A stretch of 64,000 nucleotides of DNA, from the NCBI RefSeq assembly GCF_003399645.1, contig NZ_NBXD01000030.1, positions 62,001-126,000 of the forward strand, read 5' to 3'. The stretch comes from Subtercola boreus. GTDB lineage: Bacteria; Actinomycetota; Actinomycetes; Actinomycetales; Microbacteriaceae. Position 1 is the stretch's first letter; the number at the start of each line of letters is the position of its first letter. The position numbers were made by a program, and so were the translations under genes. This document shows positions 10,183 to 13,365 of the stretch, piece after piece. The notes beneath the pieces were generated by a model that saw nothing but the letters and a program-made list of their open reading frames with translations, made no database searches and was not told where the DNA came from.

Positions 10183-10632
10183 TCAGCGCCGGTCATCCAT
10201 CGCCGCCGTTCCGGTGTCGGACTGCCCGGCCGCGGGACGGATGCCGGCGATCGGCACGAATCCGCGGAGGTCGGCTCGCTGCCCCGAGGCGTGGATCGTT
10301 CCCCCCGCGACGCCCGCCTCCCACCCGAGTTCACCGCCTGCGAGAAGGAGCCAGGTGACGGCATCCATCTCGACCACATTCGGCGGCGTACCGCGGGTGT
10401 GCCCCGGGCCTTCGATGCACTGGATGGCCGCAAAGGGGGGCACCCGCACCTCGACGGTGTTGCCCTTCGCGCGCTCGGCGAGCAGCTGCAGGGAATACCG
10501 CACGGCGGTCGCCAGGGTCGGCCGCGGCACCGCCGTCGAGGGAGCGTGTGTTCCGCCGGCCGCGACCAGGGCGACCCGGGCGGCGTCGACGGCGGCCCAC
10601 CCCTCAGCATCCGGAATGCGCGCGCGAGCCAT
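10183..10632 (-). CDS. Sterol-carrier-family (SCP-like) protein
   Basis: The 149-residue protein contains LATAVRYSLQLLAERA, VEVRVPPFAAIQCIEGP and the conserved TPPNVVEMDAVTWLLLAGGE segment, seen in actinobacterial sterol carrier/MDMPI C-terminal-like proteins. This fold binds lipids or acts as an accessory domain; the ligand here is unknown. The tail after about residue 125 is low in conservation. Start ATG at 10632. The gene is divergent from the hairpin array at 10684-10973. Confidence 0.75.
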   Translation of the reverse strand: MARARIPDAEGWAAVDAARVALVAAGGTHAPSTAVPRPTLATAVRYSLQLLAERAKGNTVEVRVPPFAAIQCIEGPGHTRGTPPNVVEMDAVTWLLLAGGELGWEAGVAGGTIHASGQRADLRGFVPIAGIRPAAGQSDTGTAAMDDRR

Positions 10633-10683
10633 GCTGCAAGGCTACTGAGCCGCGAGCCGCCTCGCGACCGGCGCGCGCGTGGG

Positions 10684-10973
10684 TTCGCGGGGCGGCCGGT
10701 GGGGGGAGACCTACCGCCCCGCGAAGAGAGTTCGTGCGGCCTGGCGCCGGGGGAAGCACCCGGCCGCACGAAGCTGGTTCGCGCGCCGACCGGCCAGCAG
10801 GGGGGGAGTTGGGGCCGACGCGCGAAATCTGGGGGTGTCGTGTGGCGGACGACTAGGGGGGGTACCGCCCGCCACACGGGTGCGAGAAGCCATGATCAGC
10901 ACCTCACACAGGAAGAGAGTGGATGCCGGCCAATCCATTACGCGACTTCCGCACTTTTCTCGGGAAAGTTTTT
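10684..10973 (+). ncRNA. Candidate structured RNA: four large hairpins with G-run loops, then a terminator
   Basis: This is most of the only gene-free stretch over 300 bases (10633-11064). Hairpin 1 (10684-10695 with 10714-10725) has a 12-bp perfect stem, and hairpin 2 (10731-10741 with 10762-10772) an 11-bp one. Hairpin 3 (10778-10785 with 10819-10826) has 8 bp and hairpin 4 (10839-10848 with 10869-10878) 10 bp. Hairpins 1, 2 and 3 start exactly 47 bases apart, open with TTCG and close with CGAA. Their stems differ by paired compensating changes. Each loop holds a run of five to seven G on the plus strand. A U-tailed hairpin at 10953-10973 would end a plus-strand transcript before the purD promoter. 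A smaller stem at 10651-10666 precedes the array. An alternative is a minus-strand leader of the SCP-like gene, or a DNA-level palindrome array. Confidence 0.45.
10953..10973 (+). terminator. Intrinsic terminator upstream of purD
   Basis: ACTTTTC (10953-10959) pairs with GGAAAGT (10963-10969) around a TCG loop and is followed by TTTT. Nothing codes for protein directly upstream on this strand, so it most plausibly ends the candidate RNA at 10684. Confidence 0.55.
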
Positions 10974-11052: not shown

Positions 11053-11058
11053 TAGAAT
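11053..11058 (+). promoter_or_regulatory. TAGAAT -10 box of purD, leaderless arrangement
   Basis: TAGAAT ends 6 bases before the GTG start, which places transcription start at or near the start codon. The same CATAGAAT/CGTAGAAT string precedes purF (17740) and purL (31956). No clear -35 box is visible. Confidence 0.5.
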
Positions 11059-11064
11059 CGTCGA

Positions 11065-13365
11065 GTGAAGATTCTCGTTCTGGGTTCCGGTGCTCGTGAG
11101 CACGCCATCGTCGCTGCGCTGCTGGCCGAACAATCGCCTGTGGGTGGCCCCCACGAGATCATCGTCGCCCCGGGCAACGCCGGAATCGCGGCGGCGGTTG
11201 CCGTCGCCCCGCTCGATCCGAACGACCCAGAGGCCGTCACCAACTTCGCGAACGAACAGAGCGTGCAGCTCGTCGTCGTAGGGCCCGAAGCTCCCCTCGT
11301 GGAAGGTGTGGCCGACGCCCTCCGCACCCGCGGCATCCCCGTCTTCGGTCCGGGCCGGGCCGCGGCCGCCCTCGAGGGCAGCAAGACGTTCGCCAAGCGC
11401 ATCATGGAGGCGGCGAACGTGCCCACGGGCCGAGCGATCCGTGCCGCCAGCACAGACGAGGTCGAGCGGGCGCTCGACGAGTTCGGGGCTCCGTATGTCG
11501 TGAAGGCCGACGGCCTCGCGGCAGGAAAGGGCGTGCTCGTCACGAGCGACCGCGAGGCCGCGCGTGCCCACGCCGACGAGTGGCTGTCACACGGCGATGT
11601 TCTCTTCGAGGAGTTCCTCGTCGGGCAGGAGGTCTCGCTCTTCTTCCTGACCGACGGTCACACCGTCGTGCCGCTCTCCCCCGCGCAGGACTACAAGCGC
11701 CTCCTCGACGGCGACCTGGGCCCGAACACGGGCGGCATGGGGGCCTACTCACCGCTCCCCTGGCTCGATGACGAATTCGAGAGCGAGGAGGCGTTCGTCG
11801 ACGAAGTACTCGTCTCGATCGCCGTGCCGACCGTTCGCCGCCTTGCCTCGGAGGGTACTCCGTTCATCGGGCTGCTGTACTGCGGGCTCATCCTCACCCC
11901 GGCAGGCATCCGGGTCATCGAATTCAACGCCCGGTTCGGCGACCCCGAGACCCAGGTCGTGCTCCCGCGCCTGACCACACCGCTCAGCGCCCTGCTCTTC
12001 GCCAGCGCCACGGGAACGCTCAGCCAGCAGCCGAAGCCCACCTTCTCCCGAGACGCGGCGGTGACCGTCGTACTGGCCAGCGAGAACTACCCCGGCACCC
12101 CTGTCACCGGTCGTCCCATCACCGGGGTCGCCGAGGCCGACGCTCTCGAGGGCGTACACGTCACGCACGCGGCGACAGCGCTGCAGAACGACCGGCTGAT
12201 CGCCACCGGTGGCCGCGTTCTCAGCGTCGTGGCCACCGGCGGCGATTTCGGCCGGGCGCGCGCCCGCGCCTACCAGGCGCTCTCCGTCATCCACCTCGAG
12301 GGCGGTCAGTTCCGCACCGACATCGCCGCCCGGGTCGATGGGTCTGCAGCGACCCCGCTTGCTTCTGCTCCGGCCGCCGCCGAACCCGCCGAAGCGACAG
12401 TCGGCGCCGAGTCTCCCGCCCCTGAGGCGCCCGCCCCCGAGGCACCAGCCGCCAAGGGTCAGCGATCCGTTCTCGCGGGGTGGCACCACGTCTACTCGGG
12501 CAAGGTCCGAGACCTGTACGTTCCCGAGGGCGCGGCTTCGATCGCGGATGCCCCGGCCGTGCTCGTCGTTGCGAGCGATCGCGTGAGCGCCTTCGACGTC
12601 GTTCTCGAACCGGGTATTCCGCAGAAGGGCGAGCTGCTCACCACCCTCAGCCGGTGGTGGTTCGACGCGCTCGCAGGGTTTCCGAACCACCTGCTCACAC
12701 CGCCGGCCTCGACACCGTCCGCCTCCACGCAGTCGCTGATCCCGCAGGTTCCGGCCGAGGTCGTCGCCCGCGCGATGCTGGTGAAGCCCCTCGACATGTT
12801 CCCCATCGAGTGCGTCGTGCGCGGCTACCTCTCGGGCAGCGGCTGGATCGAATACCAGGCGACGCAGAGTGTGTGCGGTGTGCCGCTCCCCGCAGGTCTC
12901 CGCGACGGCGACAGACTGCCGCATCCGATCTACACGCCCGCCTTCAAGGCCGATCTCGGCGACCACGACGAGAACATCACCTTCGAGCGCACCGTGCAAC
13001 TCGTCGGTTCTGAGATCGCGACGGCACTCCGCGATCTGTCGCTCGCGATCTACGCCCGGGCGTCGCAGATCGCGGAGACGCGCGGCATCATTCTCGCCGA
13101 CACGAAGTTCGAGTTCGGCGCCGACCGTGCCACCGGTGAGATCACGCTCGCCGACGAGGTGCTGACGAGCGACTCGAGTCGCTTCTGGGATGCTGCCGCC
13201 TACGACTCCGGCGACCGAACGGCGAGCTTCGACAAACAGATCGTGCGCAATTGGCTCGCCGCGAACTGGAACAAGAGCGGCACGCCCCCCACCCTCCCCC
13301 CGGAGGTCGTCGCCCGCACCGCCGCCCGCTACGCCGAACTCATCGCCCGCCTCACCGCGCCCTGA
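11065..13365 (+). CDS. purDC: Bifunctional PurD-PurC: GAR synthetase fused to SAICAR synthetase
   Basis: One 766-residue frame carries two purine enzymes. Residues 1 to about 425 are phosphoribosylamine-glycine ligase: ILVLGSGAREHA at the N-terminus, VKADGLAAGKGV in the ATP-grasp domain, FNARFGDPETQVVLPRL. A 40-residue Ala/Pro/Glu linker (about 426-465) follows. From about 466 the protein is SAICAR synthetase: VYSGKVRDLYV, VLVVASDRVSAFDVVL, FPIECVVRGYLSGSGW, and DTKFEFG near the end. Both halves have full family length and intact motifs, and no stop or restart signal separates them. The enzymes catalyse non-consecutive steps. Start GTG at 11065, probably leaderless. Convergent with purM, 15 bases apart. 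Confidence 0.93.
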   Translation: MKILVLGSGAREHAIVAALLAEQSPVGGPHEIIVAPGNAGIAAAVAVAPLDPNDPEAVTNFANEQSVQLVVVGPEAPLVEGVADALRTRGIPVFGPGRAAAALEGSKTFAKRIMEAANVPTGRAIRAASTDEVERALDEFGAPYVVKADGLAAGKGVLVTSDREAARAHADEWLSHGDVLFEEFLVGQEVSLFFLTDGHTVVPLSPAQDYKRLLDGDLGPNTGGMGAYSPLPWLDDEFESEEAFVDEVLVSIAVPTVRRLASEGTPFIGLLYCGLILTPAGIRVIEFNARFGDPETQVVLPRLTTPLSALLFASATGTLSQQPKPTFSRDAAVTVVLASENYPGTPVTGRPITGVAEADALEGVHVTHAATALQNDRLIATGGRVLSVVATGGDFGRARARAYQALSVIHLEGGQFRTDIAARVDGSAATPLASAPAAAEPAEATVGAESPAPEAPAPEAPAAKGQRSVLAGWHHVYSGKVRDLYVPEGAASIADAPAVLVVASDRVSAFDVVLEPGIPQKGELLTTLSRWWFDALAGFPNHLLTPPASTPSASTQSLIPQVPAEVVARAMLVKPLDMFPIECVVRGYLSGSGWIEYQATQSVCGVPLPAGLRDGDRLPHPIYTPAFKADLGDHDENITFERTVQLVGSEIATALRDLSLAIYARASQIAETRGIILADTKFEFGADRATGEITLADEVLTSDSSRFWDAAAYDSGDRTASFDKQIVRNWLAANWNKSGTPPTLPPEVVARTAARYAELIARLTAP

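Follow-up and report, generated by a model that had tools for sequence, protein, structure and literature searches.

A conserved hairpin array beside purD in Subtercola: a candidate minus-strand RNA with C-rich loops

The 6C/B11 RNA is a main actinobacterial example of an RNA acting via C-rich loops. Many hairpins with a repeated loop motif, in this case GGA, are also the design of RNAs of the CsrB/RsmZ kind, which sequester CsrA/RsmA. In M. abscessus and M. marinum, the C-loops of B11 (6C) were reported to pair with G-tracts near ribosome-binding sites and to repress the corresponding messages (PMC10470900, PMC12395582), and the 3' C-loop hairpin of the M. marinum RNA was described as a terminator with a U-rich segment (PMC12395582). 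Extra copies of 6C are on record for mycobacteria (PMC9569102). According to a statement in PMC6789036, no Hfq homologue had been identified by sequence search in actinobacteria as of 2019. Here we describe an array of hairpins in a 64,000-nt stretch of Subtercola boreus DNA (the window), which looks like an undescribed RNA gene beside purD, on the minus strand and not, as originally proposed, on the plus strand. Among the papers listed by our literature searches, none describes such an array RNA.

Three hairpins of the window (10684-10725, 10731-10772 and 10778-10826) open with TTCG, close with CGAA and start 47 bases apart, and a fourth is located at 10839-10878. Read by eye, the stems of the first two differ at positions 5, 7 and 11, each difference being compensated on the opposite arm. 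On the plus strand the four loops contain 6, 5, 7 and 7 G, in three cases with A next. All these elements had been named in a sequence-only reading of the window and are indeed present. The 47-base period proposed there is exact in the window but not general, the start-to-start steps between units ranging from 42 to 142 in 14 arrays. Counted along the minus strand, hairpin 1 (10839-10878) has the loop ACCCCCCCTA, which reads ATCCCCCCTA in eight of the 12 Subtercola genomes; hairpin 2 (10778-10826) has 7 C in its loop, and hairpins 3 (10731-10772) and 4 (10684-10725) have the loops TTCCCCCG and CTCCCCCC. Their scores with R1, a model of the array unit built from the minus strand, are 47.9, 47.0, 44.6 and 53.1 bits, respectively. 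A further hairpin, P0, lies 5' of them on the same strand (10883-10908; columns 6-31 of A6, 10 of 12 Subtercola), with 92.5% of cells paired, one-sided changes only and no double changes. For the window sequence, to which the folding z-scores apply, the minus strand at 10678-10907 folds with -132.1 kcal/mol (z -7.88), and none of 200 shuffles was as low. Thus, the hairpin array goes beyond chance. The plus strand of the same stretch does not stand out (z -1.56, with 13 of 200 shuffles reaching an energy as low).

The comparison of related genomes leads to the same picture. When all units were considered (A4), 93.7% of cells were paired and 97 double-change cells were counted versus 26.3 after shuffling (0 of 500 shuffles). 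For hairpin 1 (A3, 10 of 12 genomes, without L009 and L013, in which the first hairpin is longer) there were 6 such cells versus 2.3 (3 of 500), and for the last hairpin (A2, 12 genomes), in which 100% of cells are paired and one pair varies between GC, AU, CG and GU, 4 versus 0.9 (0 of 500). The numbers of pairs with a double change are less striking and exceed the shuffles less clearly than the cell counts: 1 versus 0.7 in A2 (325 of 500 shuffles), 3 versus 1.5 in A3 (42 of 500) and 9 versus 6.7 in A4 (37 of 500). We conclude that the hairpins are genuine and that their pairing is under selection. The earlier proposal of tandem hairpins preserved for their structure is therefore borne out by structure and covariation, but not its placement on the plus strand with G-loops as binding sites and a U-tail terminator.

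The array was found between the gene of an SCP_3 family protein and purD in all 12 Subtercola genomes and in two Agreia genomes, so that the search in close relatives suggested by the sequence-only reading came out positive, with covariation. It comprises four units in 11 Subtercola genomes and six in one (G011); the Agreia arrays have five and at least two, the latter being a lower bound because the gap in this record (L020) is cut. In the window, the SCP_3 gene (10183-10632, minus strand; Pfam PF17844, 3e-39) is the downstream neighbour on the same strand and is preceded by a TAGCCT box, as read from the sequence, at 10639-10644 (minus). In the divergent direction follows a purD-purC fusion in one frame (11065-13365, plus strand; Pfam GARS and SAICAR_synt domains), with a TAGAAT box (11053-11058) six bases ahead of its GTG; its message is probably leaderless. 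The minus strand of this region reads TCGA[CT]GATTCTA in all nine Subtercola sequences that were aligned.

The SCP_3 protein itself was detected in 12 of 12 genomes of the genus and in 242 of 249 genomes of the family. The family loci compared are the best-scoring of these 242 genomes, and the set comprised 36 loci with both SCP_3 and purD, two of them being the window itself. In the 11 other Subtercola genomes the gap between the two genes is 371-1021 nt as computed, some of these values extending into the SCP_3 gene where its start was extrapolated, and every gap bears the array. Elsewhere in the family, 19 of 23 loci have a gap of 31-139 nt without room for the array, L016 and L035 have longer gaps in which no array was recognized by eye, and L020 and L029 carry it. 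A 55-nt gap without array is found in L025, which belongs to the same genus as L020. L029 shares 400 identical bases with the record of Agreia sp. Leaf283, and a further Agreia record (L083) shows the upstream block (see below) and a first hairpin that is cut by the record end. In a scan of 199 family genomes with R1, using stricter filters which can lose weak matches, seven genomes matched: four Subtercola, two Agreia and one of another genus. Within these genomes and the compared loci, the candidate array RNA was found in Subtercola and some Agreia. The match in the other genus (L052 1501-1548, g38; 31.9 bits) is a single C-loop hairpin located between two ammonium transporter genes (PF00909).

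Upstream of the array on the minus strand, a promoter-like block, GCGTAATG-N16-CTCTCTT (10913-10943), is present without any mismatch in all 12 Subtercola genomes. Hairpin 1 begins 63-66 nt past the CGTAAT position of the block, the position of which would place the start of the array transcript at approximately 10902-10912. With at most one mismatch the block occurs at 40 places in the 12 genomes, 12 of them being the arrays, and at none in the reversed control; the genome of the window has it once. Nineteen of the 40 places were read. One is an array and 16 of the 18 others look, by eye, like starts of secreted-protein genes (for L111 the gene start was seen in a separate record reading). 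The block also stands ahead of apparently one and the same gene in three Actinacidiphila records and two others. In L069, the one tested by Pfam, this gene belongs to the SsgA family (PF04686, 5e-36), and the Streptomyces record L079 stops short of the gene. We read the block as a promoter that genes of secreted proteins in Subtercola and an SsgA-family gene in Actinacidiphila appear to share (loci with the block: L101-L129 in Subtercola; L069, L077 and L082 in Actinacidiphila; L079 in Streptomyces; the MAG L072). No published account of this promoter motif came up in our literature search, and none of the papers listed has the letters GTAATG. The ECF52 factor SCO4117 is reported to affect ssgB, and the motif reported for it differs from the block (PMC5826349). 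In Microbacterium hominis (L073 5135-5353) the block is followed by no obvious gene start and, further on, by a GC-rich hairpin; possibly this is another RNA gene. The sequence at 10953-10973, which had been taken for a plus-strand terminator with a U tail, falls in an A/T-rich segment immediately upstream of the block conserved on the minus strand; judged by eye, it does not persist as a single hairpin across nine aligned relatives.

On which strand, and at which level, do the hairpins act? Both strands can form them, and a structured plus-strand RNA whose G-run loops bind a protein or another RNA was the original proposal. Taken by themselves, the energies of the whole arrays do not discriminate between the strands, the minus strand being lower in seven of 14 genomes, the plus strand in six, with one tie. 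However, when the stem pairs of 57 units from 14 genomes were scored without preference for G.T or A.C, the minus orientation gave 767 Watson-Crick pairs, 52 G.T, 10 A.C and 7 other combinations. This bias of G.U over A.C wobbles is strong; related genomes are not independent, and it is not to be read as a probability. In addition, R1, with the origin mentioned above, gives the window units 15.6-29.3 bits when run on the plus strand, compared with 44.6-53.1 for the minus strand. The fold of the array stretch on the plus strand is close to its shuffles, and the conserved block, situated towards purD, has the opposite orientation. Based on the wobbles, the folding of the window sequence and the conserved upstream block, the array is very probably a minus-strand RNA, and we regard the plus-strand reading as highly improbable. 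On the minus strand the loops are C-runs and not G-runs, and with this the idea of a sponge for a CsrA-like protein, the GGA loops of which would need the plus strand, falls away. Tandem palindromes in a gap between divergent genes, numbering four to six units among the complete arrays, could also be a DNA-level element, either a palindromic repeat for protein binding or recombination or a transcription insulator. But for a palindrome in double-stranded DNA the G.U bias would be meaningless, and no other copies were found in the genome of the window: BLAST found the array at one place only, and R1 (150 of 4779 first-look candidates scored) found only the four units below E 0.1, the next matches having E 0.15 and 0.31. 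We therefore consider a DNA element quite improbable and have rejected a REP-like palindromic genome repeat, which the sequence-only reading had named as the alternative in case of scattered copies.

Two other readings accept a minus-strand RNA. Directly upstream of the SCP_3 gene and on its strand in both Subtercola and Agreia, the array could be a cis-acting leader or attenuator of this gene. Against it speak the TANNCT-type boxes which were recognized by eye a few bases ahead of the SCP_3 start codon in all 12 Subtercola genomes, so that every SCP_3 gene has its own, the approximately 580 nt between array and SCP_3 in the six-unit genome, and the 19 family loci mentioned above, in which SCP_3 is close to purD and the array is absent; a leader function appears unlikely. 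The array could also be a true 6C paralogue with an expanded number of hairpins, in line with its C-run loops, its G-poor linkers and the extra 6C copies in mycobacteria. As proposed for a check, Rfam was searched and gave no match at cut-off for the array. One hairpin (10878-10831, minus strand) reaches 21.2 bits (E 1.4) with the 6C model RF01066, the cut-off of which is 47. Eleven of the 12 Subtercola genomes also contain a 6C candidate distinct from the array, which likewise remains below this cut-off (34.5-37.9 bits). R1 matches none of the 12 loci fetched with the 6C model. The sequence upstream of the 6C candidate differs from that of the array in the three of 12 loci compared, and a promoter common to both was thus rejected. 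With a score below cut-off and without cross-match by R1, the array was not filed as 6C, and we judge a 6C paralogue to be a rather unlikely explanation. In the genome of the window the 6C candidate is found at L002 1501-1577 (G000:C7:100293-100369), below cut-off and with two C-loop hairpins; the best match of the 6C model in G001 (29.7 bits) looks like a terminator. Other Rfam candidates were discarded: 2dG-II scored 13.6 bits versus a cut-off of 60, and matches to miRNA, RT-13 and frameshift families were far below cut-off.

The explanation we favour, with reasonable though not high confidence, is a trans-acting minus-strand sRNA of approximately 230 nt, 6C-like and with multiple loops, which would block G-rich ribosome-binding sites, gltB being a candidate target. 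On the minus strand, the promoter-like block would be followed by P0 and then by four, at most six, hairpins, each with an open loop containing 4-9 consecutive C, and with A/C-rich, G-poor linkers between them; start and end of the RNA are putative in this model. When hairpins were collected from the gaps irrespective of their loops, CCCC occurred in the loops of 55 out of 59, and the remaining four are located downstream of the arrays. The longest C-run per loop is 6 in 31 of the 57 units, 4-5 in 17 and 7-9 in 9, and in 13 arrays the linkers contain 11% G and the loops 15% G and 56% C. The rigid stems would expose the C-runs, the probable partners of which are G-runs within or close to the ribosome-binding sites of messenger RNAs, and translation of several messages would be reduced in the manner of the multi-loop 6C/B11 RNA.

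Possible targets were looked for with the pattern GGGGGGAN{3,12}ATG, which shows a modest enrichment in the 12 Subtercola genomes (248 matches versus 158 in the reversed control). Matches were viewed in full for G000-G005 and in part for the remaining genomes, and most of the places sampled are not gene starts. Of the 16 matches in the genome of the window, 15 were read, the 16th being on the complement of the 6C candidate, and, judging from their open reading frames, two of the 15 appear to be gene starts, those of gltB and of a bacterial globin. The start of the globin gene (L172 796-1293, minus strand; PF01152, 6.4e-36) follows GGGGGGACGCG, making it a possible second candidate target of the C-loops. 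The one G-tract gene start that recurred in several genomes belongs to a GATase_2 protein, whose open reading frame spans approximately 1570 amino acids and which we read as the glutamate synthase large subunit, gltB. In 13 further stretches (14 drawn, with one missed site) there was no second gene start kept across several genomes; gene starts with the motif in a single genome occur, e.g. in L262 and L268.

In all 12 Subtercola genomes the gltB leader contains GGGGGGAU and the start region reads GGGGGGATGGATTC..ATGG. By contrast, no run of six G was present in the gltB leaders of 66 other Microbacteriaceae (of approximately 145 available), 26 of which have no run of at least five G and 40 no run of at least six, with four of the 40 having a run of five; GAGGACR was found in 55 of these 66 stretches. 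The longest match between an array loop and the gltB site measures 6-9 nt; it reaches 8 nt or more in nine of the 12 genomes and is 7 nt in the genome of the window. G149, which of the two array-bearing Agreia genomes (G149 and G200) is the one represented among the 66, has no G-tract before gltB, and therefore the link between array and gltB rests on one genus. Moreover, the G-tract can pair within its own leader, and the loop TTCCCCCC of the 6C candidate in the genome of the window could also pair with it, so that there are other possible reasons for its existence. Based on this complementarity, gltB may tentatively be regarded as a direct target of the array RNA, with the balance somewhat against it. 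In much of the family, gltB is preceded by a leader element, GGGCC..CG.CGTCCC ... GTGAGGACGG (e.g. L180, L195, L205 and L218-L237), in which CGUCC can pair with GGACG near the start codon; four loci scanned gave no Rfam match at cut-off.

It is tempting to go one step further and to speculate that the array represents a new genus-level class of multi-loop RNA, independent of 6C, which titrates or represses many messages simultaneously by its four to six C-loops, is turned on from a promoter of the type used for secreted-protein genes (and for the Actinacidiphila SsgA-family gene), and has driven the gltB ribosome-binding site to GGGGGGAU throughout the genus. We consider this extended version doubtful. 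If the favoured sRNA reading is true, an RNA with four to six loops, its own promoter and a plausible target fixed in the genus would suggest that C-loop RNAs are a wider class, in which the number of loops is itself tuned, and the Subtercola array would be a test system for such RNAs outside mycobacteria.

How does the array compare with the known systems? With the CsrB/RsmZ kind it shares the design of many hairpins and a repeated loop. In mycobacteria with extra 6C genes, as in Subtercola, there is more than one C-loop RNA per genome, but those genes fold as regular 6C, and the description of them in PMC9569102 mentions no tandem array in the part concerned. The nearest working analogue is the 6C/B11 RNA, likewise actinobacterial and with loops of approximately six or more C, and the partners reported for B11 are G-tract messages (PMC10470900, PMC12395582). 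The loops of the array agree with this feature. The differences are four to six C-loop hairpins instead of two, other stems, another upstream block and another locus, and coexistence with a separate 6C candidate. Furthermore, up to 40 bases after the last hairpin, inspected by eye in 13 arrays, contain no U-tract, and thus no U-rich tail as in the 3' C-loop terminator of B11 was seen. In summary, the array resembles 6C in its loop logic, while by the tests made it is not a member of 6C.
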